NCBI RefSeq assembly: GCF_026914185.1
Contig: NC_070565.1
Location: forward strand, 4,650,001 to 4,714,000
Origin: Puccinia triticina
Taxonomy: Eukaryota; Basidiomycota; Pucciniomycetes; Pucciniales; Pucciniaceae
Length of the DNA stretch: 64,000 nt
Reading direction: 5' to 3'
Every line of letters starts with the position of its first letter. Within the stretch, counting starts at the first letter, position 1. The notes under the pieces are model-generated. The model saw nothing but the letters and a program-made list of their open reading frames with translations, searched no databases and was not told the DNA's origin. A program made the translations under genes and the position numbers. Below are positions 5,120 through 61,768 of the stretch, piece after piece.

Positions 5120-8007
5120 TTAGATAAAACCTTGAATAGCCGCTCCACATTTTTCGTGCAGTGTTTTACCTAGAGCCTTATAAGTGAGAATGTCCGCAAC
5201 TTGTTCCTTGCCGGGGATCCATTCGAGAGATGTCTTCCGTTCAAAAAGTGCTTGGTTGGTTACATAGAAATCACGTTCCACATGATGCGTCCTTTTGTTC
5301 GACGCGTTTTCACAGCCAATCTTTACGGCAGATTGATTATCACATAGAATCCAAACTTGAAAATTCCCGCCAATGATGTTGAATAACAAATTCCGGATCC
5401 ACAACGCGCGCCTGGTTGCGTGTCCCAAAGCCATATATTCTGCCTGACACATTGAGCTGGCCACGGTGACTAATCTGCGTGAGACCCACATCACTGGCGC
5501 GCCGTACAAGCGGATGATTACGCCATACGTGGATCTAGAGCTTGGTCCACCCCAATTAGCGTTGACAAAACACTCTACCGGAGGAGTATTGCCCTTCGGG
5601 TGGATTTGCAGGGAAACTTCTTTCGTGCTCGCCAAATATCCTAGAAGATGTCGAAGCCCCTTCCAGTGCAGTGTTGATGGACGGGACGAGAAACGGGCCA
5701 GATAGTTCACGCTGAATGCTATATCTGGTCTCGTCCCAACAGCAACGTAGCTTAAACCTCCTATAGTCGAGAGGTAGTCCTTGCTATTGATGCCGGCACA
5801 CGATTCATCACTGTTCGCAGTGTAGCCTTCAGGAAGAGGTGTGTTGTGCGAAGTCACACTGTCCCAACATTCTCGCAGAATTTTCTCAATCAAATTTGGC
5901 TGGGTCAGCTCGAAACCGTCTGCTGTTTGTCTGATCTTGACTCCCACCATGCTCGTCAGTCCCTCAGACCATTTGATTTCAAGACTCCCTTTCAATTGAT
6001 TTTCCAGGCGTTTCAGTGCTTCGTCGGAAGATCCAGTGACGATGCCGTCGTCTACATGGACCCAAATGATCGATTTGTCCTGCGCGTTGCTGAGCGTATA
6101 CACACTGGAGTCGTAATAGCTCGAGACATAACCCAATTCGGCAAGTGTCTTGCTCAGGTGCTTCCACCAGCAGCGTGCTGCTTGCTTGGTTCCATACAGG
6201 GCGCGTTGAAGCAGGCATGCTTCTCCAAATTGCACGTCTAGGCCTTCTGGTGGTTCCACCCAGACCTCTTCATCGATGGGCGCGTTGAGATAAGCTGCCA
6301 CGAAATCGAAGTTGTATATGGGCCAATTGTTCCGCGCTGCAATAGTCAGGAGGATTCTCATGGACGTAAAAGTCGCCGTGGGAGCAAAAGTATGCGCATA
6401 GTCAGTGCCTTCTTTCTGGTTAAACCCTTTCGCTACATATCTGGCCTTGAATTTGATGGTCCCATCATTATTGGTCTTCTTTGCAAAGACCCATCGTGCC
6501 CCCAGTTTGCGTCTCTGCGGGGGCAGACGCCGTACTTTCCAGACTGCTTTCCTGCGTAGGTTTTCGAGTTCGGTGTCTATTGCTGCCTTCCAATGTTCTG
6601 CATCTTTGGATCTCATCGCCGCCTTGAAAGTTGTTGGGATAGCATCTGAGTCGTCTGTGCAATTCGCCAAGCACGAGTCAACACATTTCTCCTGTTCTTC
6701 AACTTTCTGTTCCTCGGTGAAGTCATTCAATTTCAGCAAGTTTGTTACTGGCTCGGGAGTCTGGGTCGGGACCACTGCAGCGGAAGGCAGAGCATTCCGT
6801 CCGAAATCTGCCCACGCTGACGACACAAGCTTCTTTGACCATGGAAGCCAGAAAGTCCACCCTTTTGATTCTTCAAGGTGACCAACAACAATCCCTTCGA
6901 CTGCCCGGTTGTCTAGCTTTTTTCTCTTTTTGGGTGCCACGAGAACGTACGCGTGTGATCCAAAAACCCGTGTTCGGTCCAGCTGTGGTTTCACCCCGTA
7001 GAAACATTCGTAAGGTGTTTTCTCTTTTGTAACCCTGTTTGGTATCCGATTGAGAGTCCAGGCTGACCACATGAACGTGTATCCCCAAAATTTGCGACCC
7101 AGTTCGCCGTCATACAGAATGCTACGGCCCATGTCTGAAACAGTCCTATTGTATCGCTCAGCAGCCCCATTCTGGAAATGATGGTATGGCAGAGATCGCT
7201 CTGCCACAATACCTTTCTCGCTCAGAAAAGCGGCAAAAACTTTGGAATCAAATTCACCTCCGTTATCCGACCGTAGTATCTTCAGTTTGGACCCTGTTTG
7301 ATTCTCCCACCGCTTGATGGTTTGCATCAGCATGTTCGCAGCATCAGCCTTCGTCTTGAGGATCTTCACTTCGCTGTATGATGTATGTGCGTCTTGAATG
7401 GTCAACGCATATTTGCCGCCAGTCATGGTTGGTGTATCAAACGGACCCATCAAATCAACACATACCACTGATAGTCGCTCTAGGGATCTTCTTGAGGGGC
7501 CTAACCGCGAGGTCCGGGTTGCCTTGCAAATGGAGCACACCGGGCATTTAATCGAGCCCATAGGCATTGTCTGAGGAAGACCGTATCCTAGCTGAAGCTT
7601 CACCAGGCGCCTAATTTTGCGGAGACTTGCATGGCCAAAAAGTCTATGCCAAAAAAGAAGAGTCTTCTCATCTGGCGTCAAATCCTCAGGTGTCCAGGTG
7701 AACTGGCTGTGTTCAATGTGATCAGGAGACTTGAAAATATTATTGGCATGGATATTGTAATTCAAAGCTGTATTACAAGATTGATCAGAACTAGAGAATG
7801 AGGAGGCCCGTATTGGTTTTTTTAATGGCCAGGTGTTCTTGATGGGATCAAACTTGCTCCGCAATAGTACCTTGCCGTCGCTAGTCATCAAATCAATTGA
7901 GTCAAAATTCCCATTGACACAAAACTGAGCGTTAGACTGTTTGAATGCAGCTATTGATAGTAGAGTTGATCGGGCTTGCTCACAGTAGTAAACCCTTTTA
8001 ACAGCGA
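5120..8007 (-). CDS. copia Pol: integrase, reverse transcriptase, RNase H (5' part separated by Helitron)
   Basis: An open frame of over 920 codons from an ATG at 7891. The same frame stays open upstream to the Helitron junction at 8007, so the true protein began in gag. In order: GAG-pre-integrase zinc finger (HRLFGH...CPVCSIC), integrase core (VDLMGP, then LRSDNGGEFD and the AAERYNRTV stretch, giving the D, D, E residues), reverse transcriptase (ARWVFAKK, YNFDFVAAYLNAP, and WVHVDDG at the catalytic box, usually Tyr-Val-Asp-Asp) and RNase H (QAEYMAL, CDNQSA). In RNase H the usual Asp-Ala-Asp-Trp is Asn-Ala-Asn-Trp (AAC codon at 5561-5563), which should cost a catalytic Asp. The frame is otherwise intact. 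Confidence 0.9.
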
Positions 8008-9945
8008 CTAGCGTTTATGGGCGGCTACGCCGCCCCGTGCCCGCTGCTTTAAATTCCTTTACAATTAATTTAAGAGACGTACCAAAACGGTACCTTATGA
8101 GGTGGCAGGCTCCTCCAACCGGAATACGGCTAAGGCCCGCAATCGTGATGAAATCATGAAGACACAGAATAAATTACATCCGGGAAAACTTGATGCAACA
8201 TGGGGACCAGTACTTAACATAGCTTAACAAAAGAGTCTAAACCAATACATGTTTTCCAACTACATTAAATAGGTCCCTAGTAGACCCAATTTGAAAAACA
8301 GCTAAATTTTCAGGACATGTCACTCGCGACAGAGCCACATACAGTTGACCATGAACAAAGACCTGAGACTTTAGAAGAAGAACTACATTTTGCAAAGTTT
8401 GACCTTGACTTTTATTAATGGTCATAGAGAAACATGCAACTACTGGGAATTGCTTCCGATAGAACGAAATTTTAGCCTGCGCTTCGCCCTCGTACCGCAG
8501 AGTTATTTTTGTCAATTTTTTACCTTTATGTGAGCCCGTCAATATTGTCGCGCCCATTGTCCACTTTGTTAAGCGCGTCACCATCAACCGAGTCCCATTG
8601 CACAAGCCCTGGGGAATGTTCAAGTTACGCAACAACATTACTGGCATACCAACTGCCAAAGACAACTTATGCTCGGGGAAGCCGGGGAAGTTGAGCTTAT
8701 TCAGACTTTCTTCAGGCAAAGAATCCAAAGCCTCATCGTCGGGCTTATTGATTGACGTCGAGCATGATACCTCTACGTTCATCCTTTGAAGTACGGCGTG
8801 ATTGAGTGCCCAAGAATCGCTATTCAGCGGCGCGAGAATGCATCGTGAACTGAGATATTCCATGTAATCCTCCCGCAAATTCCGACATTGCTTTTTTATG
8901 TCTTTATATAAATATTCAACCGAATTGCGAATTAAGTCCTCTGGAGAAGTAGCCAAAGTGACATTGATTGTACTCAGTTGGACTTTTTCGTTTGAGCCGG
9001 CTTGTAACTTTCCTTCCCCAAGATCGAGGAGTTCTTGCCCAAACCAAGCAGTATCGCCACCAGGATCCTTGCCCCGCCTGAGTCGCATATTCATAGTTAA
9101 GGCGTGCTTTTTGACTTGAGACCATAAGTAGGAAGACTTCAATGTGGAGTGGGAAGACGGAGGACACTCTTCCATTCCAACGACAGGAAGAGTTTGTCAA
9201 AAGTCCCCTGAGAAAACTACACATTTCCCCCCAAATGGATCCGCACATTTGAGTAGTGGGATAGATGTGCTGACTGTTGGGACCATTGGGGCGAGAGGAG
9301 TGGGAAATAAATGGTGCGGGAGAGGCAATCAAAAAATATTTTGGGTTGGAGTTTTTATAGGGTAACAATGTATGGATGTCAACCAAGTACTCTCGGAGGG
9401 GTGCCGGAAAAGGTGTTAAGATGTGGAAAAAGTTTGGGTCATTGAAAGGAAATTGGGGAAGCATCCATTCCCGGCAGCGCAATAAAGTCGCGATTTCTGT
9501 AAAGAAACTCAGTTTCCCTTTTTTGTGGGATCAATTGCGTCCGGGAAGACTCAGAGGCACACCGGAAAAGGGCTAGGGAGATGGCTTGGAGTGATTTTAG
9601 GAGTTCTGAAAAGAATATCAGGTAACCATTTTCGGGTGATCGATTGCATTTGGAAAAGGTGGCAATGGACGAAAAAAGGGGACGGGGATGTGGGCAAAGG
9701 TGGGAGGGCAAAAGGAAATTAAGTAACAGAGTCCGGGTTGAGTTGAAGTAGAGGGGAAAATTATAAAAGGAGGCAGCGATTCAATGGTTGCTGGACATCG
9801 CTTGGCTCTTGCTCGGCGCCAATTGCTTAAAGAGCCAAGCGATCCAGGTGTATTGGGACCTGTAATTTGTTTTTGGGTGCAGGAAGGGAGAAATGCTGCC
9901 ATTTTTTTTGTTGGTGGGCGCTGCGGTCTGCTTAATGTTAAACTG
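8008..9945 (-). mobile_element. Helitron fragment inserted in copia protease
   Basis: The 3' end is diagnostic. On the minus strand a hairpin (GGGCGGC, GTA loop, GCCGCCC; plus coordinates about 8019-8035) is followed by ATAAACG and CTAG at 8008-8011, and the next host base is T, as expected for insertion between A and T. The copia frame resumes directly after it. The 5' limit is only approximate: the copia protease frame is lost near 9930-9960, and no canonical TC start was found. The insertion carries the C-terminal helicase part only, so it is truncated or non-autonomous. Confidence 0.75.
8237..9290 (-). pseudogene. Helitron Pif1-family helicase, C-terminal part, with stop in GDFRQ motif
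   Basis: The minus-strand frame encodes the C-terminal half of a Pif1-like helicase of Helitron type. It reads PFGGKCVVFSGDF, then a TGA at 9197-9199 where the family has Arg of Gly-Asp-Phe-Arg-Gln, then QTLPVVGMEEC, and further on FPEHKLSLAVGMPVMLLRNL, NGTRLMVTRL, SMTINKSQGQTL and LYVALSRVT, the late SF1 motifs. The Rep/HUH domain and helicase motifs I-II are absent. A CGA to TGA change would explain the stop. 312 codons remain open after it (8237-9175). Confidence 0.75.
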
Positions 9946-11846
9946 TTAATGGTCGTTTTGTTCATCCCTGCAAATCTCAAAGTACCCGTACCTGTGATGA
10001 AATCGCAGGCGGTGTCAGTCGCTACTTTGACAGCGATTGGTTGAGCTAGCGGAGTGAAGTCAAACAACGCATACCTATCCCCGGTGACGTTGTCCGAAGC
10101 CCCAGAGTCCCAGATGACTTCTTGGCCGTCGCAATTGACAGTCATCTCGCAAAGATTGAATCAATGGCCTGAGGGTTCCGCGGATAGGTTCTCGTTCTCA
10201 AAAACAAACTCCGCCTCTTCTTCTTCTTTGGCGAACAGCTCAGGATTAATTTGTCTGGTCTCAACCGCTTTCTTGGTGGCGTTGGGATCAGCTGGCTTTG
10301 AATGAGGCGTGTTGTGCTGGCGAAAGGTTGTAGGCTTGGAGGTAGTTGTTCTGGAGTCCGGCTGAATTGGTTTGATGTAGGGAACCCGATCAAAATTGTA
10401 TGTGATTGAGCAGGGAGGGAAGTTTTGTTGACCCGTGGGCCTGTGAGGCATGGTCCGAAGAGGTTGATTGTTTTTTTGACTGGTCGGGCAGTTCGGAGCA
10501 AAATGGCCTGTTTGCTTGCAGATGTAGCAGTGTTGGGGTTTGTCCAGAGCCATCACGGAGACGCTTGATTCTTCCTGAGGTCCTGAAACGACACCTGAAA
10601 GGCTAGATTCGTTTTGGCTAGCTAGATCGACTGCTAGAGCGGATGATTCTGATCGTCCCGATTCTTTGGCCAAACGGTGTTCAGTGCGCGCGGCTTCCCA
10701 GAAGCGAAGTATGTCTCCGGCCAACGGTAGCTCAAAATTGTGAGTCTCCATGAAAAGGTTGACTTTCCGATCAACTACTGTTCCGAGGTGGTCCTGTAGA
10801 TTGCCCTGGAAGACAAAGCTGACGATGGTGTCCCACGTGAGTGTGACACCCTGCTCCCTGAAAGTTCTCGTGCACTGGTCGATCGCTGCGATTGCTTTGG
10901 CCAAACTGTTATAGTTCGATAGTGAGATTTTTTTTTAAATTTCCCATGTGTGGAGCTGTTTCGCGCGGTTGATGATGCAAAACTTGGACAGTAAATGTTC
11001 GTAGACTGCAGCCGAGTTTTCAAAATCGACGAGGTTGTAGGATAGATCACTATGTACTGAAGAGTGGATAATCCCACAAGCGATTGTCTCAAAATAGGGG
11101 TCAACAATCAAATCCTCGCTCGGTGTGAAAAAATGCTGATTATTGAATTGTTTGAAGGCCGTGAGGCAAAGAGCATCCTCCCAGCGCCTGACATTTGATC
11201 CGTCCGGTTTGAGTATGTCATCCGGGTCCAACTTATTGATTGCCGTGTTGATGATGGCTGATGTTTTGGCTGATTCATCAAGCTCACGGCGTCTTTGGGT
11301 GCGTACCTCCTCAGCTTCCCGGCGGGCTCGATCCTCTTCTCGCCGAGCTTGGTCTTTGTTCAAACGAGCCTGATCCAGCTCGCGTTGAAAGCGCATCTCG
11401 GCGATGAGACTGTTGAGATCGACTTGTCCCGTCTGTTGCGATTGAGGTTGCAGCGCAGGATTAACGTGGGGAGGCGGTTCTGTGCGTCGCCAGTTGTTGG
11501 ACAAGGATCCAATGGCTCGGCCAGTCAAGCAAGGTTGGAAGGTGGTCTCCTCGGGTAAGTCGTCCAACGCTTCACGTCCTTTGCCTTTGCCGTTGTTGAG
11601 GAGAAAGGATTCGTCGCTGTCATGCCTGTTATTGTTGGATAGAGAGGGACCTTCTCCATGGGAATCAGAGGAGGGGATGCGTCCGAGTCGACGTCGGAAG
11701 AGGTCATTCGTCGAAAGCTGTGGGCCAAGGACGCTTTTGATTGTTGGGTTCTTTGGGGTTGTGCGGTCTACAGTCCGTAGTCCTGGGATTGTGCCGAGTT
11801 TGGGTTTTGGGTATAGGCGGCCAGGCGGTAGTTTGGTATCCGACAT
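9930..11846 (-). pseudogene. copia Gag and protease start, with in-frame stops
   Basis: The likely Gag start is ATG 11846 (MSDTKLPPGRLYPKPKLG); the frame is open further upstream to 12002. Gag has a charged coiled coil (about residues 140-190: ELDQARLNKDQARREEDRAR) and a CCHC zinc knuckle (CYICKQTGHFAPNC, near 10520). Two stops interrupt one continuous frame: TAA at 10935-10937 before an A9 run, and TGA at 10161-10163. After the TGA the same frame goes on into the retropepsin motif (VIWDSGASDNVTGD, near 10100) and ends at the Helitron junction. The TGA lies exactly between Gag and protease, so programmed readthrough is possible, but the TAA argues for decay. Confidence 0.75.
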
Positions 11847-12470
11847 GATGCTTGAGGTGACAAGAAGTGATCTTGTGAGTCTGGGGTTGAGAGAGTAGGA
11901 TAGAATCAAGAGAAAAAGAAAAAAAATGGAAGTTGTCCACGGTCGGCGTAGGTGGTCCAAGGTTGAATAGAACCACAACCTGACTTGCTGGGCTACACGC
12001 AAAGTTTAAACCAAGAATGCTGCTCTTTCAGCGGCACCGTGGCTATGGGTGATCAGTCCAACGTAAATATCTGCAGGATATTCACCACGGGCTTGCTTAA
12101 AGAGTAGCAAACTAAGAATCTACCCGCAAGCGTTACCACACAAGACTAGGGATTACAAGAGAACTAATCTTCCGAGGTTGAGTTCAGTCGGATAATCGGT
12201 TGAAGAGAAGAGAAAAAAAATATTTTGTTATTGGTTTATTATTATTTTATTTTTATTTATTTTGTTTGTATCTGATGTGGAGGATGTATAGGAGTTGGAT
12301 AAAGAAAAAGAAGAAAGAGAGAAGACTCGCCGGCGGACTACGATTGCTCGTCTGGAATGACTACGGTACTTGTTTTCTATGAAACTACTAGAATAGGACT
12401 CGTCCTGATGCCGGCTACGGGTGTGAATGATGGGTAAAGTTGTTTTGAAAGATTTTTGAGCTACTCCGGC

Positions 12471-21122: not shown

Positions 21123-24100
21123 ATGGCCGCCAGTTTACCTCCAGCTCAATCTAATCCACCAACCCAAATCTTTCCAGGTAAATTTCCTGCTTTCAAAATT
21201 TGCATCAATCAATGTCCGCGAGAACCGCATTTATCTGACTGTATCAAAACTTTCCAAAATACAATCGTATCACTTATTCCAGACGATAATGTACGAATTC
21301 AATCAGAAATAGAGGAGTTGATCAAGCAGTTTGTCAATGAGGAATCATTGTCAGAACCTCAACTCAGAAAGCTGTCCGATCTAGTCAAAGGTCAACGCGG
21401 TCACTCTAAATTAAATCGGCGGAAATTGATAGAAATGTTGAGTAAAAAATCACGTCCATATTTAAACACTGCTTTTGTGTAAAAAGGACGTGGAATATTG
21501 ACAGAGAACCTGTTGTCTTATTCAGTGGTCTGCTAGGATTAACTGATTCTTGTACAACTGAAGTTAGGGCGGAATCTTATCGGCTGCTACGTCATGCAGC
21601 ACATACTCTAGTAGATATGAACGTCCTCCGTTTATCGCGCGTCGAATTCTTTATCATCAAGTTAGTGCTTTCTCACTATAAGTTGATTAGGATGACTATG
21701 ATCCTCCCAGCTCCAACCAGTTGGGTACCGTTCTCACTCTCAACGACTTACCTTTTGGCGCCTCTAGAACCTTGGCACGAGACCACAAGCATGATTATGA
21801 GAAACTACAAGCACTCATCCTTGTCCGATCAGTTGCCTGTCACCCCCGCTTTTTGACCTTGTGCATCGCTCGTGCTATCGTTGCTATTGCAGAAACAGCC
21901 GAAGAAAAATTGAGACAGTTGGCAATCGAAACTTTGGGAGAATTGAGTTGAGTATTGCCATTTTTTGTATCGCTAGTTCAGAATATTTTTTATAATTCCC
22001 CAAGAAAGAAACTACCATGTATCACAACATTCTCATATCTGATTTTTTTTTCTCGTTGGTCTTAGTGGTTAGGGATTTTGAATTACTGTCCCAAGCAGAT
22101 GGAATAAAAGTGGTCATGCAAAGCCTGACCGATCCCTCCGGGGGCCTGAAAGAATTGGCCCCATATATGGCCAGTCTGGTGATGGCTATGGTTGATCGTC
22201 CCGTTTGCCGACAGTATCTTAAACCGGGTGTAGATTTTGAAGTGAGTGGCGACACTGTTTAAACGGAAGGTTAGATCACACAACAAACTTATTTTTTGAT
22301 CCAGTCAGCGCTTGCTGCGATCACCGAAGTTAATGAACCCAGTTCATCACAAGCCCAGGATGAACGAGTCCGAACCAGCGTCAAACTTGTGGTACTCCTT
22401 TTGAAATCATGGACGGGTAAGCTTTGCTATCTTCTGTTGTATCTTGTCTCCTTTTCGAATAGGTGTGCTGAAGTCGGTTTTGGTCAATAGGATTGATGTT
22501 TCTGTGTTTGAACAAAAAGAGATCACTAAGGATGTATGTCCAATCAATGAAAGTGCCATCCGACAGCATACGGGTAGGCGCTCGTCGTGACATCGTGACA
22601 TCTTTTTTTCTGGCCGTAGTCACACCATCCAGTCCAATTTGTGAATACGGAACCATTGACGCACTTTCAATATTTCCCTATTCTTTTACAGCTGATATTA
22701 ATCGACGCGCTATTCGAAATATTCCAAATCAAAACGCCGCAATGGTTTAGCACTTTCATGTCTGGCAAAAGGTTGACTTGTCAGTTAGATATCCTATTGC
22801 GCTTTGTCTTCCATGTAACATGGTTTAATTTCAGTATGAAGTCCCTGCAGTCTTGCTGACGGAAGTACGTGTTCTCTCTAATTTGTGCCTTAGATTACCA
22901 AAAACCGGGAACACAACCCGTCCAATCATCACAACCACCTATCAACAAAGATCTACCTGAAAAAACATCCGAACGGGCCACTTTGGCTGACCATTACCTT
23001 GCAATCCTTCTGCTTGTATTTTTTGATGTGAAATTGTTAGAAACTTTGATCGAAATCACTGAGTCCAAGGGGACGCGAGATGAACCTGTTCCAGGATCAA
23101 CGACCACCAAGCAAGCCAATCTGAACATTGCTTTGGCATCAAAATCCAGCGTGGTACGGAAGAAAGCTTCGCTTCTGATCGCCGAAATTCTAGATCTTTC
23201 CAACCGCATCTTGCCCTTACGATACGGCACGCGGATCCAATCTTTACCCCGTCTCTTCGAGCTGGCTGCATCATTCCAACAAGGGGATCATCGGTCGACT
23301 GGGACGGCGGCGCTGAGGGAGGTGGATAGTTTACATCGCACGAAGAACCGACTGGCGTCGCCATTCCTGACCAGCCGGGGCGATCCGGGATCAAATTCGA
23401 GTCATTGGGACGATGTATCGCTATTCCGCTCGTTCGGAATCGGCTCGATGGGTCTCACGTCTGTAGGTGGAGTTAGTGGAAGTGCCACGGCGACTTCGGT
23501 GAACGGCTTGCTCAGTGCGGTGTCGAATAGCGAAAGCGCGAGCAAGGTGGGCGGGTCTGGCGTGATGGGATCGAGTGCGTCAGTGAACGGATTGGCCAGC
23601 GGGCTAAGCTTGATTACTGGCGTCTCATCGACTACGACGGGCAGCGGAAATGGTACAAGTGGATTGGGCAGTGTTGGCGGCGTGGCCGGCAACGTCAGCG
23701 CAGGCTCTGATCCACCTCAGAACGCCAAACTTCTGCCGCACTCCGACCCTCGCTTTCGGCTCCATTTCATGAATATTGATGATGTCAGCTTCCGCAACTT
23801 GGTCATCGAAACCCAGGTCTTGGTCACTAAAGACCACACTCGTTGGAACCTCGTCAAGTTACTCGAGTTGATCGAGGGCACGCTTTATATGAACCCTAAA
23901 CGATTGGAGGAGCTTACTAGAAGCACTAAAGTCATGAAACGTCTCTTAGGCTTTCTTCATCCTTTCGAGGGCAGATATCCTTACATCAAGCGCACTAAGG
24001 TATGCACGTTTTTTTTTTTCCTTTGAAGAAAGGTTCAATGAAACTGACTATCTGACTGTCTGTTATGAATTTACTTTTACAAGCACACTAGTCGTTATAC

Positions 24101-26839
24101 CAAACTTGCTTGCTCAACTCTTCAAACTTTACTCAGTGATCCTGTCGGAGTGAAGTTTTTGTCAGAGGATAAATTAGTTGAACAGATTGGCTTAGGTTTG
24201 CGACAGTTAGACCAGGTTGGCAATCCGTTTTCCTCGCGAGCATCCCATATTCAATTAAAAAATAAAATAAAGACTTATATTTTGCTTTTCACTTCGGTGA
24301 ACAAACCTTTATTGTAGCATACTGGTGCTCAGTCAAACGAAGTCTTGTTTTCTCAAAGTCGAGTTGAAGATACTTTGACTCATGGTTATTTTGAAATGCT
24401 TGGCGTTTTGAGTAAATATCCCGAAGGAATCAAGTTTGTGCCACCTTTTTTGAAGAGCTCGAACGGCGCCACTTCTCTGATATTTCGTCACCTGCGCTTT
24501 TTCATCCGCTGACTTGGTTTCCTATGCTCCGTGGTCTTTGTAAATTTTTAGGTTGATGGAAAAATTCAAAATATTCACCTCTTTCTACGCGCTTTGTGAA
24601 ATGAGAACGCGAGATGATTTGGTGAAACAAGTGATCGAAAATGTTGATTATTCGATGTGAGTGATTGCATTTCTTGAGATCTGGCTCGCTGTCGTGTCTG
24701 ATCCGCGTTGTTTCACTCATTTATTTAGAAATGGACATTGCCGCTTAGTGCTCTCAAAGGCATTGACTTCCTCCTACAAGCATGTTCGGTTGTTTGCGAC
24801 CCATCACCTAGAAAAACTAATCTCCCGGGCCGATTTCTCACTCTCTGGATCACCTTACCCACCTGTCAATAGCGTCCCAGCCAACAGCCCAACGGCGATC
24901 AACGATGCCAAAACCTGGTCGATCCGGCTACTCTTGACACAGTTGTACGACCCATCCCCTGAGGTGTGTGGTTTGGCGGTCGAGATCCTCGAAGAGGCTT
25001 GTGCTGGCTCTATCGAAGTCCTCGAAACAGTAGTCAAGATGAGACCTTCAGTCGAAAATCTCGGTGATGTTGGGGCCCCATTATTGTTGAGGTATAAAAA
25101 ATTCACAACTGAAATATTTATTCGAAGTTGCACTGATCCGCTCTCGCTTTCCCTTAGGTTCCTTTCTACTTCTGTCGGTGCGCGTTATCTTAATGAAATC
25201 GAATGGACCGAGAGGGAAATGGATGATTGGTTCCAGGTATGTTGGATTCCTCTTTGTAAGTAGAAGTCCATTTGGCTTTGGTCTAATACTCATTATTGCT
25301 ATTGGATATTCTCAGGAACGCAACCGAGATTATGTGATTCAATTAGAGGTTTATCTCTCCAAGTTACTGAATGCAGATGGCACTAGAGATGAAGAAGATG
25401 ACGAGCTTATGTAAGTTTCAGACAAAATAGTTTTATTGCAAAAGACAACCAAAAATTGCTCGCGCTGAAAAAAGGGATGACTTTTCGATCTAGTGCTAGC
25501 GTGGATGGCTCGCCGCCCCCGCATTTCTACGGAGAATTGGTCAAGACTGCCGAAGGACGTGAGCTGTTGACCGCCAAAGGGCATTTCGATGAATTCGTGA
25601 AAACGATCCGCCAGCATGGACGAGAGGAGTGTGACCTTGAAGTTATCAATCAAGTGAAGACCGCCCTATGGGCCATTGGCAATATCGGCGCATCCGTCGG
25701 CGGCCTTACCTTTTTAGAGGCGGAGTGTGTGGTCGATGATGTGGTCTCGATCGCTGAAAGTAGCAACGTCTTTTCAGTAAGAGGGTAAGAGACCAGATAT
25801 TCGATTAGTATCCGACAAACCAGTCCCGCTAATTTATCGTGCCTCGGTTAGTACATGTTACTTTGTGTTGGGCCTGATTTCATTAACATCAGAAGGATCA
25901 GAACTCTTGGAAGACGCCGGATGGGCGACCGTCCAAACCCCCTTAGGAATGATCACTGGGATTTGTGTGCCCACCCGTCTGAATGAATTCATCGTCAATC
26001 CAACCTGGAAACCCAAGAAAAAGAAGCTACCGGACTTGTCGACTCGTTATACTCCCTTCAAATCACCCATCCACCGAAAAATCTTGATCGCTATCGCCAA
26101 TCTAAGTAACCATCTTCTCGCTAACAATTCCTCTAAAACCTTAGCTAGGTTTGTCAATCCATTCAATACTTTAGTTGGGCCTACTGTGATAATTGAAATC
26201 GTGATTTTTGTTTGTATGCGATGCAGATTGAAAGCGAAACATCGAGAAGCGTTTCAAGATTTGGGATTATTTCACCGAGCACTCAAAATCCTAGGAAATT
26301 ATCATTACAGGTTAATGACACGAAGGTTTGTAATGGAACTTTTTGGTGACATCAAGTTAGACTCGACGTCGGCACGGAAGATCCACGAGGCGGGAGAATC
26401 GATGAAGAGCTCAAGAGCAGATACCAGCAGGACGATCACCCACGATATTTCTCCTGTAAATGTAGGCAGCGAGCAGGCTACAACACTGCCCGAAAAAAAT
26501 GACGGCAATGTGGATGAGGAAGAGGAGGAATCAGAAGAAGAATCAGAAGAATCGGAAACATACGAGAGTGTAAGGATGGAAGACTTGCCCGTCAGGAGCG
26601 GCAGTTGTTTACTCGAAGCCTACGATAAAACAGATTATTGTAGCGATGATGATGAAGAGGATGGTGAGGATGAGGAGATTGAAGCAAACGGAACGGAAAA
26701 CGGGACGTCTCTTGTCCCCACAGACCACTCGCCCGCCTCTCGCCCTGCTGCTCTCGTTCCTCCTCGCTCTTCAGTCGGTGATGCCAAACTTCGTGACCGT
26801 CTCCCCATGGTTACTGTTAGAGGATTCATGGTCTCTTAA
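21123..26839 (+). CDS. Rictor/Pianissimo homologue, TORC2 scaffold subunit (multi-exon)
   Basis: TOR complex 2 subunit (Ste20 in fission yeast, Tsc11/Avo3 in budding yeast, Rictor in animals). Exons read with clean GT-AG joins: 21123-21478, 21526-21660, 21768-21946, 22066-22241, 22305-22416, 22491-22573, then about 22691-22770 and about 22895-23999, then 24084-24215, 24318-24433, 24552-24656, 24729-25091, 25158-25236, 25316-about 25410, about 25450-25784, 25852-26146 and 26227-26839. Landmarks: ILVRSVACHPRFLTL and AIVAIAE (N-terminal domain), DPRFRLHFMNIDDVSFRNL and YPYIKRTKH (middle domain), WTEREMDDWFQ...ERNRDYV, then NQVKTALWAIGNIGASVGG, RGTCYFVLGLISLTSEG, and an acidic, Ser-rich C-terminus. 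A Gly/Ser-rich insert lies at about 23440-23720. Joins at 22.75-22.90 kb and 25.41-25.45 kb could not be resolved. Confidence 0.8.
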
Positions 26840-31551: not shown

Positions 31552-32495
31552 TGGGACATCGAGTCCTCCTGGATTCGGTGTCACCCTGTCAGGCTGGAGC
31601 GCCTGATCTGCCCGGGGCCCATCTTGACCCTCAAACCAGGAAAACTACCGATGCAACATCATCTTGGCTGAAAGGTTTGCGTACAAATCCGAACATCCCG
31701 GTGCCAATTGGTTCCCTGGTGTTTAGATTTGCCGTGATGCTTCAACTATGTCCTGGGGCTCCATACATAAATAGATGCCAGCTATGATCAAGCTATGAGG
31801 CTATGTTTTAACAGCGTATTCTGTTTGGTGGGTTGATGGTGTAAGTTCTCCCCGGCCAGTTTACGCTGGCGGTAGACTGAAGCTGACGGGTCGTAGATGG
31901 CTATATCAGCGGGTCTATAGAGAGCTTTCTTTGGTTTAGGGGTCTGCATGTATCTCAGTCCGGGTCTTTCTTGAGGTGCTCTACCTCAGTAACCTCAGCC
32001 CACGCCGCCTGTGCAACTCGCTGATGAAGTTTGGGTGAGTTGCGTTAGCCGGTTATGGAAAGCTTGGCCAGCGGGATATCGGCATGCGGACAAAAGGGCA
32101 TGCAAGGCCGGGAGGTCGGGTGCTCCTCTGCGTTGCCATTTTATTGTTCCGAAAAACAAACAATAAGAGTGGTACAACTGCAGAAGGGTAGATGGAACCC
32201 CTGAACTATCCATCTCTTGCTAATTCCAGCACTATGGAATACTCGCTGATTCTCTCGAAGCACCCAACAAAGCATATTTGAGTTTAAATACTTCCGTCGC
32301 TGCTTTTCTACTCAAGAGTGACTGAGGGCAGACTCAGTGCAGGCATCACCCTCGAGTAACTCAGTCGAGCTGGCTGAGGTTGAGCCGCACTAAATATTTA
32401 AAGAGTGCATTTCTCATTCATCACCCGCAACTTCTTCAGGACACACTCCACTCCCCTTATACTACACCTCCCCCCTTAGATTTATTTAAGCCGCC
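31552..32495. other. Upstream region of the AT-hook protein gene
   Basis: No second gene seen. The last 300 bp are pyrimidine-rich, with CTTCTTCAGG and CCACTCCCC blocks close to the ATG at 32496, as often seen upstream of highly expressed fungal genes. The promoter limits cannot be set by eye. Confidence 0.4.
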
Positions 32496-35237
32496 ATGTT
32501 TCCCAGCACCGGCAACTCACTCTCCCGTCCGAATGTGCCTTTCCCCACGGCTAGCACAAGCCAAGACTCCATGGCCGGCAGCAGTCGTCCCATTGCTAGC
32601 CCCCGGCAAGGAAGGCCGGCTCGCTGCTCCTCGTCGGCCCGGATCCCCTCCCGGCTTGCCCAATCCATCGTGTTTGACCGCGACGGCCACGCGCAAGACG
32701 GCCCGATGAGCGATGCCCACCGCTCCGCTGCACCTCCGACCGCAACTCGCTACGGGATCCCGATGTTGGGCGCGCACGGCAGGAACGCGGACTCCTCGGA
32801 CCGAGGCATCCAAGTCTACGCCGAGACGGCTTCACCCCTCGCCCAGCCACCTTCCCCTCCCCATTCTCCCGAGCTCCCCTCGCAGCCCCCCTCAACCCCC
32901 ACCACCCCCTCCTTCTATCTCTACTCCCGCCCCTTCCACCCCAACCCCCCTGGACCTCACATACGTCCTCCCCCCGAGCTCTGCCTCTCTCCCCCCTCTT
33001 CCCCCTCTACCCCGCCCTCCTCTCCGGCCTCATCCGACTCCGACTCCGAGGAGTCACCCGAAGAATCTCCCTCCACCCCGTCCGACATCCCGCCTTCCGC
33101 TCCCCGGTCTGCGGCAGCGCCTGTCGCCGGTCCCAGCCGCCTCTCTGCGGCACTGCCTCTAGCCAGATACAGCCATCGGTCCTACCCCCGGCTAGCACCC
33201 GACGAGGCCGATGTGCCGGCAATCTCCGACACCAATCTTCGGTCGAGGGAAGGGTCCGTCGATTCCACTTCCGCCCCCTCAACGCTGTTCCTTTCCCCGG
33301 CCTCATCACCCGGGACATCGACATTCGACCCCCGATCCATCTTCCGGCGGGCTCAACCTGCCGCCAAACCCCGAGTCGCCCCGCGTGGGCTTCCATCTGT
33401 CCGGGCATTCGCGCCAGCCAACCGGACTCTCTCGGCACCGGCCGTCTCATCCGCGGGGCCGTTCTCAGCCCGGATAGCCGCTGCTGCTAACCGTCGAGTC
33501 CCTTCCCGTGGGCTTCCATCTGAGCGGGACTTCGTGCCAGCCAACCCTCCTGCGCCCTCGGCCTCCTCACGGCCATCTCAACCGGCCGACCCATCCGCGG
33601 GGCCAGTCTCATCCCAGGCGGAGCTTCCCGAATCCCGACAGCCAGTGGAAGCTTCCGCTCTTTCGACTGGGGCTCAACCGGGGTCGGCAGGAGCAAGTTC
33701 GCCTTACGACTTCCTCTTGCAGCCTCTGGCCAACAGACCGGCTGCAACCTTCACCACCTCTGTGAGGGCTCCATCGGCCTTGCCAGGACGGCGATCCCGG
33801 CCTGCTCGGTTGAGTGTCCGTTTCGACTTGCCTCCTGGCTCGGGTCGATCACCGGCTGGCTCGAGCCGATTGCAGGCTACCTGGAATCGAATTCAGGCTA
33901 GCTCTCGTTCCCTACAAGCTCGCTCACGGCGATCATTCCCTCCGTCTCTTGGCCTGTCAGCGGTACCGACGACCTCAGCCGCGGCACCACCTCCTCGCCG
34001 CCACATCTCCATCCCTGAGTCGGCATCGACATCCCTCGCCGAGGTGCCGCAGCGTGCCCCCGACCTCCCCCCTCCGATATCTCCCATGGTATCCCCCAAT
34101 GCACCTCCTCGTTACTCGCTAGTGTCTCGCCAAGGGAGAACGTCACCGCGGGTGTTTCTGGCCTTGAGTCAGTCGGCAGCAAGGTCTTCGTCTTTGGTCC
34201 GTGCCGCTTCCCCCTCCCCCTCCCCACTTTCCTCACGTCAGTCGACATCACGGTCTCTGCCTCCGGCTCGTGCGCCTTCCCCTTCCCCTTCTCCACCGCC
34301 CTCACCATTGGCGCATCGCTCTTCTTCAATCTCACCGCCACCCACCATCGCGCATTCTCCGTCACTCTCGCCGCCAATCTCTGTGGCTCCCTCTCTACCC
34401 GCTTCCCCGGCACGCACCGCGGTGCCTTCCCCACCAGTTTCCCCGGCACGCCCCCTTGCGCGCTCTCCAAGTGTTTCCCCGGCACGCACCGTCGGACCCT
34501 CTCCTCGGAATTCTCCGGTACGCCCTGTTGTGCCTTCTCCTCGGGTTTCCCCGGCACGCACTGTCGTACCCGCTCAGTCGCCGGCTGCAAATGTTGAGGA
34601 GACGTCATCTCGGGAAAATGCGGTCGAACCCGGCACCTCGGATGCCCCGAGCCGTTCGGGCTATCAAACCCGATCGAAGCGAAGAAGAGACGCCGAAGCT
34701 GCACCGGCCCCTGCAGCCAAGCGTCTTGAGGCTGACCGCCCAGCACCGAAGGGGAAAGGAAAAGCCCCTATGAAACGACAGCCGAACAAGCGAGCCGCTG
34801 TAGATGAAGAGGCCCCCGAAGCGAGCACAAGTCGGCCCCGGAAGACCGCGAAGGCCAGCCCAAAGGCCAAGAAGGAGAAGGAAGCCGACCGCCCGCAATC
34901 GAAGGTGAAGGGAAAGGCTCCGGCGAAACGGCCGACGAAGAAGAGCGCAGCCGTCGATGGGCCTGCACCGCAAGCCAGCACAAGTCGGCCTGGGAAGCCC
35001 GCGGAAGCCAGCAGAAAGGTCAAGCGCGAAGAAGACGATCCGGCCCGGCCAGTGTTGGTTCGTCGGAAGGTGGGCCGTCCGGCGGGCAAAGGCAAGCGCA
35101 AAGCCGCCACCAAGGAGGTTGAGGCCGAACCAAGCAGGCCGAGTGTCAGTCGATCGGCGGACAGGACGGGAAGCGGGGAGGGGACCTCAACTACTTTGGG
35201 CTACTTCACCCGATCTAAAAGAAAACGGGCCCTGTGA
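32496..35237 (+). CDS. 913-residue Pro/Ser-rich nuclear-type protein with AT-hook, intronless
   Basis: One uninterrupted frame, ATG 32496 to TGA 35237. Residues 1-700 are low complexity, rich in Pro, Ser, Ala and Arg, with degenerate repeats such as RGLPS(V/E)R(A/D)F(A/V)PAN (about residues 297-352) and runs of SPART/VVPSPRVSPA (about 625-690). From about residue 720 it is strongly basic: a SGYQTRSKRRR motif, three repeats of about 55 residues built on ADRP.KGKGKAP.KR..K.AAVD and ASTSRP, then KVGRPAGKGKRK, an AT-hook-like minor-groove binder, and a final LGYFTRSKRKR that echoes the first basic motif. The family is not recognised; DNA or chromatin binding is an inference. GC content is much higher than in neighbouring DNA, so long frames also occur on other strands and are treated as shadows. 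Confidence 0.7.
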   Translation: MFPSTGNSLSRPNVPFPTASTSQDSMAGSSRPIASPRQGRPARCSSSARIPSRLAQSIVFDRDGHAQDGPMSDAHRSAAPPTATRYGIPMLGAHGRNADSSDRGIQVYAETASPLAQPPSPPHSPELPSQPPSTPTTPSFYLYSRPFHPNPPGPHIRPPPELCLSPPSSPSTPPSSPASSDSDSEESPEESPSTPSDIPPSAPRSAAAPVAGPSRLSAALPLARYSHRSYPRLAPDEADVPAISDTNLRSREGSVDSTSAPSTLFLSPASSPGTSTFDPRSIFRRAQPAAKPRVAPRGLPSVRAFAPANRTLSAPAVSSAGPFSARIAAAANRRVPSRGLPSERDFVPANPPAPSASSRPSQPADPSAGPVSSQAELPESRQPVEASALSTGAQPGSAGASSPYDFLLQPLANRPAATFTTSVRAPSALPGRRSRPARLSVRFDLPPGSGRSPAGSSRLQATWNRIQASSRSLQARSRRSFPPSLGLSAVPTTSAAAPPPRRHISIPESASTSLAEVPQRAPDLPPPISPMVSPNAPPRYSLVSRQGRTSPRVFLALSQSAARSSSLVRAASPSPSPLSSRQSTSRSLPPARAPSPSPSPPPSPLAHRSSSISPPPTIAHSPSLSPPISVAPSLPASPARTAVPSPPVSPARPLARSPSVSPARTVGPSPRNSPVRPVVPSPRVSPARTVVPAQSPAANVEETSSRENAVEPGTSDAPSRSGYQTRSKRRRDAEAAPAPAAKRLEADRPAPKGKGKAPMKRQPNKRAAVDEEAPEASTSRPRKTAKASPKAKKEKEADRPQSKVKGKAPAKRPTKKSAAVDGPAPQASTSRPGKPAEASRKVKREEDDPARPVLVRRKVGRPAGKGKRKAATKEVEAEPSRPSVSRSADRTGSGEGTSTTLGYFTRSKRKRAL

Positions 35238-54897: not shown

Positions 54898-55304
54898 AAG
54901 CAATGAAATATCACGAAAATATATGCACCAACATCTCTTTTTTCCTGAAGAGCTTCCTTGCCCCCAGGTCAGACGCGCCACCTCAAGTCTGTTTGATTGA
55001 GTTCGACTGGCTTCTTACTGTTGAAAGGACTAGTATGTGGTGGGACGTGCTATCAACTCCTCAACTTAGTGAGAGAATCAGATGAGCCAGAGAACATTGA
55101 AGCATCCCACTTCTTGACGTTACTTGTAATGGCCCCTACAGCTCAATGCATGGCGGCTGGTGTCCATGATGTGAGTGAACTATGCTCGGCCCCTCCGTTC
55201 TTCTGCTGGCAGCTGCTGGCCATTTCTGCGGCCGGTGCCATCCTGGCCGTGGCACCGAACTTAACTAAGTCCCTCCTCGCCTGAGGCTTTGCCGGAGGGA
55301 CTTA

Positions 55305-55668
55305 GAGCATCCGCATCGGTGCGGGTGTAACTCGAGGAGTAACAGATCTGCTTACTCCCGGATTAGCGCTAATCCCGGCCGGCAGCCGCATCGGTGCGGG
55401 ATAAAAAGCTGTGTAAGTATGTGGTATGCACCTACAGCTTATGTAAGCTGTGTTTGGTGCATACTTTTGGGTGGGGAGGAGTGTCTGCATGCATGTGAAT
55501 ATGCATGCAGCGCTTACTCCCAGGATTAGCGAGGAGTAACTTTACTCCCGCTTACTCCAAATTGTACTCCCGGGAGGAGTTTAGTCCGATTAAATCGGAC
55601 CCAATGCGGTTGCCGAGGAGGATTAGTTATGCTAATCCTCCCTTAATCCGCAACCGATGCGGATGCTC
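55305..55668. mobile_element. PIF/Harbinger-type MITE inside the left TIR
   Basis: 364 bp, TIR GAGCATCCGCATCGGTGCGG (the right copy has one extra T), flanked by TTA on both sides (55302-55304, 55669-55671). A GAGCATC start and TTA duplication are the PIF/Harbinger pattern. Excising it with one TTA restores the host TIR, as seen by comparison with the intact right TIR. Non-coding; contains ACTCC-rich hairpins. Confidence 0.75.
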
Positions 55669-56136
55669 TTATGACTTATCAGGAATTCTCGCATGAGAGA
55701 TCCGGATAATTGACCACGCTCAACGTTATATTCCTCACTACTCCGTCAATTCTCAACCTCTCCTTACCAGACCCATTTTTACTGAATGGTATCCTTCTCA
55801 ACAAAATTATCATGTATTTTACATCCTATGTATCTAGCTCATCTACTTCAAAAATAAATATTTCAAAAATCAGAATAAAAAACAAAATAATAGTGATGTC
55901 AAGCACATCACTCCATTTCATTCCAAATTAATTTAGTAACTGCATAGTGCACGGACCCACCCGCGTTGGGAGATGATCGGAGCTACTAAGCCTGATCAGG
56001 CTTACATGATCGATGATATATACAAAACGGAGAAAAAACACAATGAGATTGAAAAAAAGAAACACTTTCATCGACAAGGAATAATAATGTAACCTCGAAG
56101 AACATCATCAACTTTGGACAACTACTTCGACCAGCC

Positions 56137-58452
56137 ATGGAACCCACCAACAAGGATGATAGCAATCTTGCCTCTCTCAACCTTTCACAAGAAGAAAACA
56201 CCACTTCTAAACTGACCTTACGCAAAGAATTTGACCAGATGTCCGATGAGGAGCTTGCCAATCATGTTACTCTCACGGCAGCAAAATTCTACTCCAAACC
56301 ACTGAAGCCAATCCAGATGGAGACTGTGATCAGCCTGGTTCGTCGCAAACACACCTTCACACTCGCTGGGACCGGTTTTGGCAAGACCAGGATCGGGGAA
56401 GTATACTACCGCCTCTTTCCCGCCTACAAGAAACCTATCATTCTGGTGTTGAATCCTTTAGATTTGCTGGGGGATAATCAAGTGAGATAAACAGGCTTTT
56501 TTTTGTGATACTTCATACTTACAATTGAACTGCTACACCTTTGACAATCAGGTGCTTGAGAAAAAGCAGGCAAATATCAAAGCGGTTAATCTCACCAAGA
56601 TGAATTTTACACCGGATGTTGAGAAGCAGGTTCTTAGGGGAGACTATGCGTTTATCTACTTGGTTAGAGCCCTTATTAGCCTTTCATTCAAAAAATTGAA
56701 CCTAATCTCATGTCTTACTGTGAAATCAGAGCCCAGAGGTTCTGTTGAACAATGCAATGTTCCGGCAAATCTTCTTTGACCGTCAATTCCTATCTAGATT
56801 GGTCCTCACGGTTGTGGACGAAGCACACATGATATATGTGTGGGGGTTGGTTGCGAGCGGACTTGGAAAAAAGATCAGCTGTCATTTTAAGCTGCAAGAC
56901 CGAGGTATTTTTCAGCCTTCTTATGGCAACTTGGGGGCCAGACTTCTCGCAGCGGTTGGAGTACCCATCCTCTTGCTTTCAGCAACCTGCAGGCCCATTG
57001 CAATAGAGAAGATACTTGAAAGCTTGAAGATATTACCGGAAAACATGAACATTGTACAAGGCGAACTCACCCGTACAGAAATCCGCCTCATCCGCATGCC
57101 AATGAAGCCGTCTCTTGGATCGTGTAATGACCTGAAAAAATTGTTTGTAACCCGCAAAACAATGCCAGATCACAAGATTCCTCCAACATTAATCTTTGCG
57201 CCCACACGCAATCTCACCTGGCAAGTCCTGCGTGCAATCCATGAGGCTCGAGAGATTCAAGGCGGCCATTTGGACCTGGAAAGCTCCTTTGCTTGTCGCT
57301 ATCATTCATGCACTGGAAATTTAGATAAATTAGATATCATTGGTGGATTTGAAGACGAAAATTTCCCGGTTATCTCGTGCACGATGGCTCTTGGATTGGG
57401 TCAGAACTGGAAGCGAGTCAGGTGTGTCGTCCACGTCGGTCGAGGCGATCCTTCATCAATCTGCCAGATGATTGGGAGATGTGGTCGTGGGGAAAATAAT
57501 CCGGGCCTGGGTTTAATGCTTGTTGAATCCAATCGGAGGTCAGGAAAAAATAAAATCAGTGACTTTACTACTCCATTGAAGCAATCCAACGATGATCGTA
57601 TGGATGCATTTGCCATCACCCCCGTCTGCCTTCGCATTGCCTTGTCGCTTGATAACTTGTGAGTCTAACCGTTTTGATACAGATACATCTGAAAATGGTG
57701 GGTTTTAACTGTAAATTATCCTTGTCCACAGATTAGGATACATCCCGTTAGATAATGCCGACCCAAATGTGAAATTAGAAAAGCTGAGGGAGGAGCAGAA
57801 TAAATTTACCATGTGTTTGTGTTCAAACTGCGACCCCGATAACGCCAAGATTTTGTTTGAGGCTTTCAAATATCTCACAACGGACAACTTTAGCAAGAAC
57901 ATCACCTCTAGAGAGTTGTTGATTGACGTACCAGTGCCACCAAAGGTTCCAAAAGTCTCTACCACTCGATCGGTTATTACAGCTGAGACAGGAATGAAGC
58001 CGTTGGTTGGAGAGCTCGAACGATTTGCTGAGTTCTTGGTTCAAGGATTTACTCGATTTCACCATTCGCAAATCGGGGCTGAGCATTCAGAGTTTGAACC
58101 TGAGGACCACTTCCGAATGTTTGAGGCCCGAAGAGTTGTCGTTGGGTTTTGTGGGGGATTTTCTGAGGAGCAGTTGGAAGATCTTTCCGGTGGTGAGGCT
58201 ATCAGTGGTCAAACAGAACATTTGCTCAGACAGATCAACAAATATGCCAAAAAACCATCTTATCTTAATTACTTGGAAGAATTAAAAGTACAAAGTCAGG
58301 CTGCAGAAGAGGCGAAGCGTCAAAAGGTGCTAGAAAGGAATGAAGCTACCCTTGAAAGGCGCCAACAAAGAGTAGAAGAAACAAAAAGGAAAAATACAGA
58401 ACAAGCAGCCGAACGAAAACGCCAAAAACTAGGTGGTCAACCCGGAGAGTAA
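56137..58452 (+). CDS. RecQ-like SF2 DNA helicase carried by the transposon
   Basis: 701 residues from four exons: 56137-56481, 56552-56662, 56730-57658 and 57732-58452 (introns 70, 67 and 73 bp; the sum is a multiple of three). Motifs in order: LAGTGFGKTRIGE (Walker A), ILVLNPLDLLGDNQ (Ia), YLSPEVLLNN, LTVVDEAHMIYVWG (DEAH, motif II), PILLLSATCRP (III), LIFAPTRNLTWQV (IV), SCTMALGLGQNWKRVRCVVH (V) and QMIGRCGRGENNPG (VI). A CLCSNCDPDNA stretch resembles the cysteines of the RecQ zinc region. The C-terminus is a charged coiled coil (about residues 650-700). All helicase motifs are intact, so it may be active. It ends 12 bp before the convergent gene. Confidence 0.85.
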
Positions 58453-58464
58453 CTGAGATCGACC

Positions 58465-61268
58465 TTAGCTTCTGATTTCACCATCTTCGTCCTCGTCTTC
58501 TTCAAACAAATTTGCTTCCTCAATTGGACCCGCTGGCGTGTGATACAGAAGTATAGTTGACGGTTGCATTCGATTCAGCTTCTTCCTCTTTTGTTGAAAA
58601 TCTTGATGCAAGACGGTTGACCCAGCTTTGTAAATGTCCACAATTCTCGACTTATACACCGACGAACTTGAAAGTAAATCGTGCTGTTGGGCCATGGCTA
58701 GATAGCTGTTTATCGAAGTGATTGTTAATGCGTGCTTGTGTGATTGATAGACTATATTTCTTCCTGAATCCCCCTTAATGCCCTGCAACAGCTCGCGCAG
58801 CTGAAAGAAGTGAGATAAATAAGCAAAGAAATAACATGAAATGAGTTCGGTCAAATGTGGAAACCTTACAATGGGTATAATCAGTGAGAAAACATCTTTT
58901 AAGCGGCAAATTTTGGTCCCGATCCCACTGTGGTTGTAAAAATATTTGAGCCAGAAGTTGTTGTTTTCCAAGAAGAAATCCTTGGCGACGAAATGGTTAG
59001 GCCTCCTGGTGGGGTTGATGAGTAGAGAATGCAGTAAAGTTTTTGCACGGCCCTTCGGAAGCACTTTGGTTAAGAGTATTATCATTCTGGGCAAGTAAAT
59101 TGCGTAGTTGTTGAGCCCCTTTATCCCGTGAGCCATCACGGTCCAACGTCGCCACATGTTAAGAACTCTTCCAATGTCTCCTGCCCGCATGGCTCAATCA
59201 CATTCAATGATAGATGCAAAATCTCAGAGGCGCAAGAGGACGTTCTTCAAACCGGTCGACGAATCCGCTGAAGCAGCCTTCAAAGCCAAAGGCGAAAAAA
59301 AACGATCATAGCACAGATCCACGAGTTCATTGATCCGTTCCGAAGGCATCTTGACCTTCTCCTCCAGTATCAAGGCTTTAGGGAGCTTCATCACCATCCT
59401 GGCACAAAGAAATCAGAAGTCAGTAACAAGAAAATAATAGAAGCTGTTCAATCAGATACCCACAAGAGACAATACACAATTGTTGCTTCATGACATTTGG
59501 TCATGTGTGTAAGCATTAAAGTAAAATCCTTTTTTGTTGTTGGTTGCTCAGAGGGTATTCCCAGCGATGATAGTGTATGCCATGCGCCCAAGTCTTGCGA
59601 GTCCGATGGGTTACCGAAATGGAGGAGAAAGATCGCTTGAGCAAAATTCCAGAGCACATGTGAGGCTCCAAGAAGTGAGAAGAAACCAGAGAGGTTGTCT
59701 TGAACATGAGCACTGGGTTTTCGCTGGGCTCTGAGGCTTTCCAGATTCATGCAAGTTGCTAGATCACCCTTGAGTACTTGGAGTTGAGAGTAAAACTCCT
59801 CCGAGGTCAAGTTCGTTTGACGCAGGAATCCTTCCAGGACCTCGCCAACTCCCTCGGTGGAATTGTCCGAGGCAATCATCAGTTTGAACATGGAAATATC
59901 CGGTTTCTTGACGGCAATGGGATTGATCAGAGGCGGGACTGTGCGTAATTTTTGCTTCTTATCTGATGGAGTCGCAATACAGCCCAGTAAAACTTTGGTG
60001 ATCTGACTCTTGAGTACCTCGCGAAAATGTAAGCTGGCATCGTTGTCCGGAAGAAACCAGGCGGGTTGGACTTTCATATCTGCTGAATCCTTGATGGCTG
60101 TCTGGTAACGCTTGAGAGAGAAGTCGTCTGGGTCAAACTCGTCAATCAGTTGTTTATCGGGGACGTGGAGGTAGCCCCAGGTGCCATGGAACATCTGTGT
60201 TGTCTTTTCAATTGATTTTTCGTGGACTGACTCTTCGAAGTCTAGATTGTCCAGGCATATGATTGGGGCCATCGGTGATTTCTGGCTGGCCATTTGCCTG
60301 GCAACCTTCCTTTCCGCAAGTCTGCCGAGAGAACTGATTGCACGGTGAGCCGTTCGGCGAGAAGATGCTAGCCCAATGTAATTCAGGTAAGCACTGACCC
60401 TTTCAGTGACGCCACAGGCAAGCAAAACAACTGAATTCTGTATCTGGAGGGCGTTGTCCCTTCTGTTCGCCGCAAAAGAAACCATCGAACAAACAGTCGA
60501 GGCGATGACGTGGGGTCGATTAGCGCGGTCAAAGGGTTCCTCGCAGTCTTCAATCTCTTCGAGGGCGGTTTTCTTGGCTAGAGGGGTTTCTCTCTGTGTT
60601 TCTGCTGGCGCGGTATCAGTATCAGATTCTAACTCTTTGTCTGATTCTGAGTCGGACTGATTTGTTCGATTTTCTCTTGAATCGCTTCGTGTAGGACCTC
60701 TGGTTTCGAGCGCTGGAGATAGTTCTAGTTGGTCCCTTTGCACTTTGTGCAAGATTAGTTTATAGAGGAACAGCATGTCCGCCGTGACAAGTTTTTCTGT
60801 TTGGGTGGCCTTTGATTCGTCCGAGAAAAAATCCGGTGTGATTTTTCTAGCATTATGATAATTCCCACCTGGGAATTGTCCGCGTGCTCCACCTTCAGCG
60901 GTGAGGATTGCTTGTGCCTGCTCAAACAATAAGATAGAATGCATCAGAACCTTGCCACCCAAAGAAAACGCAGCCAAGACAACAAGATAAGAAGGACGCA
61001 CCTCGGATAGTATGTATTGATTCCAACGAGCTCTTCCTTCAGCAGTATGGCGAACAAGTTGCTTGATTGCAATCAAAATGGCTGTTGTTGTTGGCCATCC
61101 GATTGGTGCTCCCCACAACCGACGATTGGACTTAATTTTCGGATCGTTGTGCGTAAGATAAGCCTGTAAGAACTGCTTCGGGTCGAGCCGATAAGCATGC
61201 AAGACCTTATCAAAAAACTGCAGTTTATCCTCTAAGCGCGGGAGACGCGGTAAGTTTTCGAGACACAT
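58465..61268 (-). pseudogene. DUF6589-type protein, candidate transposase, with two in-frame TGA codons
   Basis: Start ATG 61268 (MCLENLPRLPRLEDKLQFF). Introns: an in-frame one of about 84 bp near 60920-61003, one near 59402-59465, and one of about 72 bp at about 58800-58871. The long first part carries ICLDNLDFEESVHEKSI, QMFHGTWGYLHVP, AWFLPDNDASLHFREVL and VLWNFAQAIFLLHFG; the C-terminal part carries AMRAGDIGRVLNMWRRW and GIKGLNNYAIYLPRMIILL, all as remembered from basidiomycete DUF6589 proteins. TGA at 59224-59226 and 59194-59196 interrupt the frame just before AMRAGDIG; both would be CGA before a C to T change. The role is unknown. Being the only other gene in the element, it is the natural transposase candidate, with Asp/Glu residues in the LDNLDFEE and PDND stretches worth testing. 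Confidence 0.7.
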
Positions 61269-61768
61269 GATCTTGTAGGGCGGTGATTGGGTTGGATGTA
61301 TGCGTTGAAGGGATACTAGGATTCTGATCGGTGGAGGGGATTAATGATCAGCGTTAGGAGATATATGATCGAAGCTAAGGAGAGGGAATCAGTGAAAAAA
61401 AGAGACGCACGTGCCTTTATAACGTTGTATCAAGTGAAGGGACCTCGAGATGTCTGCGCACGGGCGGTTATTTTCTGATCCGGTGGAACCTGCAAGAATT
61501 TGAAGGAAATGGATGTTTTGAAAAAAATATATAAGGGTGAAGATGCAGGCGAGGGAGTCTGAAATTGTATCAGAAGGAGGGGCAGATGCACACGTACCAT
61601 CCACCCAAAACTTAGAAGGTTGGGGATGGTCAGGGTTGAGATTTGGTGGTTCAAAGGAAAACACCACCAAATCTAAAATATCTCTCATGCGAGAATCCCT
61701 GATTAGTCATAAGTCCCTCCGGCATAGCCTCAGGCAAGTGAGGGACTTAGTTAAGTTCGCCGTGGCAC

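Follow-up and report, generated by a model that had tools for sequence, protein, structure and literature searches.

A two-gene DNA transposon of Puccinia triticina that encodes a RecQ-type helicase and a DUF6589 protein, a probable AcademH element

A stretch of 64,000 nt from Puccinia triticina (assembly GCF_026914185.1, contig NC_070565.1, positions 4,650,001 to 4,714,000 of the forward strand; hereafter ‘the window’) contains a DNA transposon with two genes and 9-bp target site duplications (TSDs). We consider it most likely an element of the AcademH type, in which a protein of the DUF6589 family is the predicted DDE transposase and a RecQ-type helicase likely assists it. Membership of AcademH is suggested by comparison with the published description of that group. 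The pairing of the two genes at dozens of loci, the recurrence of exact 9-bp duplications around related copies and the predicted fold of DUF6589 carry this reading.

RESULTS

Borders of the element

By direct reading, the element spans positions 55256-61759 of the window and is bordered on each side by the perfect 9-bp TSD CCGTGGCAC. Inside the duplications it starts with CGAACTTAACTAAGTCCCTC and ends with GAGGGACTTAGTTAAGTTCG, CGAACTTAACTAAGTCCCTC being the inverted reading at both termini. The terminal inverted repeats (TIRs) come to ~80 bp in total and consist of inverted pieces of 20 nt (100% matching), 29 nt (93%) and 42 nt (88%). A preliminary description of this DNA, made from the letters alone, had reported perfect 9-bp TSDs, TIRs of about 80 bp and a size of 6.5 kb. 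The duplications and the TIRs were confirmed, the right TIR measuring 80 bp and the left one being split by a nested miniature inverted-repeat transposable element (MITE; Table 1). The size holds for the whole span but falls to about 6.14 kb once the MITE is subtracted. Genome-wide, 224 sites match the 20-bp end motif exactly, compared with none for the reversed control. The left flank of the element matches the assembly once, at itself, and no empty site was found.

The TTA duplications of the MITE suggest that it is presumably of the PIF/Harbinger type. Its first ~96 bp occur in at least 39 further genomic places (best 40 of 305 candidates, the window included). The insert is absent from locus L037 (C6:5366900-5375100), a two-ended copy that is 96.7% identical to the window element and has an exact 9-bp duplication of its own. 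L037 also has about 970 bp of extra sequence where the last exon of the helicase lies (window about 58189).

The two genes

As the preliminary description had stated, the two genes lie tail to tail, with 12 bp (58453-58464) between their stop codons. The helicase model has introns of 70, 67 and 73 nt with GT/AG borders, and its frame is open internally with a single terminal stop. The motifs AGTGFGKT, DEAH followed by WG, SAT and QMIGRCGR are present, and the spliced product matches the Pfam domains DEAD (E = 4.4e-12) and Helicase_C (E = 5e-7). Among 35 sequence matches in the PDB at E ≤ 1e-3, 32 bear RecQ-family names (best WRN, 1e-18) and the remaining three are named merely ‘ATP-dependent DNA helicase’. 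By these matches the superfamily 2 (SF2) core is closest to RecQ proteins, in agreement with the earlier naming of a RecQ-type SF2 helicase. The open reading frame (ORF) of exon 3 matches NCBIfam recQ_fam with E = 1.5e-11 at 43.8 bits, below the cut-off of 219.8; for this reason the helicase is, judged by its sequence, a divergent RecQ-type. The ratio of nonsynonymous to synonymous substitution rates (dN/dS) was 0.105 against a copy on C18 (dS 0.99) and 1.07 against the C6 copy, six further comparisons being saturated. On the longer time scale the helicase is conserved; between the window and C6 copies it is not. Open helicase exon-3 frames are present elsewhere in the assembly.

Both large minus-strand ORFs match Pfam DUF6589 (PF20231; E = 1.4e-33 and 3.6e-27), which bears out the family assigned before. 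The gene model, drawn by hand against homologues, is interrupted by two TGA codons in its frame, at 59194-59196 and at 59224-59226, which the preliminary description had overlooked. The window copy is therefore defective: a full-length DUF6589 protein cannot be encoded. Related rusts hold full-length predicted DUF6589 proteins. The closest relative among the candidates scored is a 468-residue P. triticina protein with 89% identity over 81% of the query. Puccinia and Melampsora were the only organisms named among the matches listed in our protein searches, although two of these searches scored just the candidates with most shared words, and wider relatives are possible. No bridge to animal or mushroom Academ elements was reached among the protein matches listed.

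Pairing of the genes across the assembly

The assembly contains at least 104 DUF6589 matches, merging into at least 83 loci, and at least 129 helicase matches, merging into at least 119 loci; both lists are lower bounds, since 102 out of 223 DUF6589 candidates and 127 out of 214 helicase candidates were scored. A helicase locus lies within 3 kb of 66 of the 83 DUF6589 loci found (72 within 5 kb), and all 66 pairs are oriented tail to tail. When loci were placed at random in 200 draws, the mean was 0.76 pairs within 3 kb and the maximum 4. Chance was thus rejected as the cause of the tail-to-tail layout, and the helicase and DUF6589 genes form a real unit. Of the 119 helicase loci found, 53 have no DUF6589 match within 3 kb.

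These counts bear on two other explanations. The element could be a Mutator-like element (MULE), or a non-autonomous derivative of one, that captured two genes, and long TIRs with a 9-bp TSD would fit a MULE. The recurrence of the pair at 66 loci argues against incidental capture, and no MULE domain was found among the Pfam matches of six ORFs scanned in the element or of 56 DUF6589 relatives. We regard a MULE as very improbable. Alternatively, two host genes could have been trapped between chance repeats. Fungal Academ copies, which carry DEAD (PF00270) and recQ_fam domains, are indeed described as often being annotated as host genes (PMC6416283), but the many copies, the fixed orientation, the TIRs and the TSDs contradict this explanation, and we give it almost no credence.

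Ends and target site duplications of other copies

In a census of the TIR, the best 40 of 206 candidates were listed and 20 loci were fetched: the right end in the window, both ends of L037, one end of L038, 11 short copies with two ends, and five loci with a single end, which were left out of the TSD count. Nine of the short copies are 577-579 bp long, one is 588 bp and one 790 bp. Nine have exact 9-bp TSDs, one matches at 8 of 9 positions and one has none; a further pair that joins L024 to a neighbouring element was excluded. The TSDs of the window element, L037 and L047 are exact and that of L038 is not. In all, exact 9-bp TSDs border 12 of the 15 two-ended copies examined; among 5820 fixed pairs of random positions there was no such match. 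The sequence of the TSD varies between copies. The short copies carry the same 9-bp duplications without the genes, and the one compared with the element (L017) retains sequence from only its two ends.

Ten pair loci (L037 and L040-L048) were fetched for their ends. Exact 9-bp duplications were found at L037, L046 and L047, with one extra matching base at L046, and L048 has a duplication matching at 7 of 9 positions. No duplication was seen at recognisable ends of L040-L045, among which L044 has long inverted ends at 76%. In the flanks of two further pairs (L049-L052) a single motif resembled an end, and paired ends were not seen. The TIR is 80 bp long in the subfamily of the window element; in L046 it is weak inward of the outermost bases.

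Predicted fold of DUF6589

The preliminary description had proposed the DUF6589 protein as the transposase. In a VIA-align re-ranking, which is not a full structure search, the best alignments of two AlphaFold models of DUF6589 relatives were to Hermes, P element, ISCth4 and RAG1. The predicted fold is an RNase H core with a helical insertion, like that of DDE transposases, and these model alignments support a transposase role. Foldseek alone gave nothing significant (nothing at E ≤ 0.001 for the models against the PDB and viral models); of the two comparisons, the re-ranking alone was informative. The DUF6589 profile had no sequence match among solved structures at E ≤ 10. Conserved acidic residues suggest a catalytic site composed of D315/D318, D443 or D477, and E722, numbered as in P0002, a reference protein that has no NCBIfam match.

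Table 1. Coordinates of the transposon and its parts in the window
Feature	Position	Strand	Remarks
Left TSD, CCGTGGCAC	55247..55255		Direct reading
Left TIR, two parts	55256..55701	+	55256-55304 and about 55672-55701, nested MITE between; from the sequence and comparison with L037
Nested MITE, 364 bp	55305..55668		Own inverted ends GAGCATCCGCATCGG...; TTA duplications 55302-55304 and 55669-55671
RecQ-type SF2 helicase gene, four-exon model, 701 aa	56137..58452	+	Exons 56137-56481, 56552-56662, 56730-57658, 57732-58452
DUF6589 gene, predicted DDE-type transposase	58465..61268	-	Introns 60918-61001, 59399-59459 and another near 58800-58870
Conserved Glu of DFFLE (P0002 E722), candidate third catalytic residue	58966..58968	-	48 of 50 alignment rows
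Stretch with conserved Asp of SDNS (P0002 D443) and of GDL (D477)	59763..59867	-	Codons 59865-59867 and 59763-59765
Two conserved Asp of DNxDF (P0002 D315, D318), first predicted core strand	60240..60251	-	Codons of both residues
Right TIR, 80 bp	61680..61759	+	Inverted-repeat comparison
Right TSD, CCGTGGCAC	61760..61768		Direct reading

Other features of the window

A Copia-type retrotransposon ORF (RVT_2, rve, SH3 and gag_pre-integrs) and a zinc-knuckle ORF occupy 5123-12005 on the minus strand. Between them lies a fragment of a Pif1 helicase (8240-9196), possibly a Helitron remnant. ORFs at 22860-26836 on the plus strand match RICTOR_N and RICTOR_V and are probably exons of a host TORC2 subunit gene. 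An open stretch of 915 codons at 32490-35237 on the plus strand has no Pfam match at E ≤ 0.001.

DISCUSSION

The element most likely moves by cut-and-paste chemistry, in which the DUF6589 protein would bind the TIRs, excise the element and join it to the target with a 9-bp stagger. The RecQ-type helicase would assist, for example by opening DNA at the ends or by aiding repair or replication at the donor or target site. The window copy would depend on transposase supplied from elsewhere. Mobilisation in trans is likely, because copies without the genes share the 9-bp duplications.

The Pfam family DUF6589, found repeatedly in the gene sets of Puccinia and Melampsora, thereby gains a predicted role as a DDE transposase. 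It follows that many rust genes annotated as ‘DUF6589’ or as RecQ-type helicases are likely transposon genes. The pairing of the two genes over dozens of copies makes the role of the helicase in Academ-type transposition testable.

The preliminary description had proposed a new class of transposon. This is not supported, since AcademH elements with a helicase and 9-10-bp TSDs (PMC10045372), fungal Academ copies with recQ_fam domains (PMC6416283) and KolobokH elements with a RecQ helicase (PMC9587614) are already described. A basidiomycete transposon that combines RecQ with 9-bp TSDs is therefore what one would expect and not a new class. The naming of DUF6589 as the transposase may be new in wording, because ‘DUF6589’ was not found in the literature searched and the sole match for ‘PF20231’ was an unrelated optics paper; the sequences of Kojima may already include DUF6589.

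The absence of that name from the literature searched would also suit another explanation, in which DUF6589 is a DDE lineage of its own, nearer to hAT, P, IS256 or RAG, and took up RecQ independently of Academ and KolobokH. The proteins that its predicted fold matches best, Hermes, P element, ISCth4 and RAG1, point in the same direction, as does the high copy number here compared with AcademH, which is called low-copy in the account consulted. However, TSD length and helicase type agree with the published AcademH, and the fold does not separate such a lineage from Academ because Academ itself is counted among the DDD/E superfamilies (PMC9587614). We therefore consider this origin unlikely. It is equally doubtful that DUF6589 founds its own superfamily, intermediate in structure between hAT, P element, IS256 and RAG and coupled to RecQ, a helicase-driven cut-and-paste system distinct from Academ and Kolobok that spread through rust fungi.

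Among known systems, a Helitron does not fit the TIRs, the TSDs and the RecQ-type SF2 helicase; Helitrons have neither TSD nor TIR and encode Rep and a Pif1-type helicase. hAT elements (Hermes), the P element, ISCth4 (IS256 family) and RAG1/Transib resemble DUF6589 in the predicted RNase H core with a helical insertion, but none of these elements is known to carry a RecQ helicase. Kolobok elements make a 4-bp TSD, TTAA, in contrast to the 9-bp, sequence-variable duplications found here, and we regard membership of the Kolobok superfamily as highly improbable. This is so even though KolobokH, a DDE transposon reported for fungi alone, likewise carries a RecQ helicase (PMC9587614). AcademX shares a superfamily with AcademH, but a nuclease replaces the helicase and the TSD is 3-4 bp; this difference in TSD length has been linked to helicase versus nuclease (PMC10045372). 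The closest likeness is to AcademH (Academ superfamily, Kojima 2020). AcademH is described as low-copy in Basidiomycota, Ascomycota and Mucoromycota (PMC10799480), in contrast to the many copies found here, and a rust genome study names Academ as an additional type of transposable element (PMC12210899). The element described here shares with AcademH the fungal host, the TIRs, a helicase gene with DEAD and Helicase_C domains, and a 9-bp TSD within the 9-10-bp range of that group.
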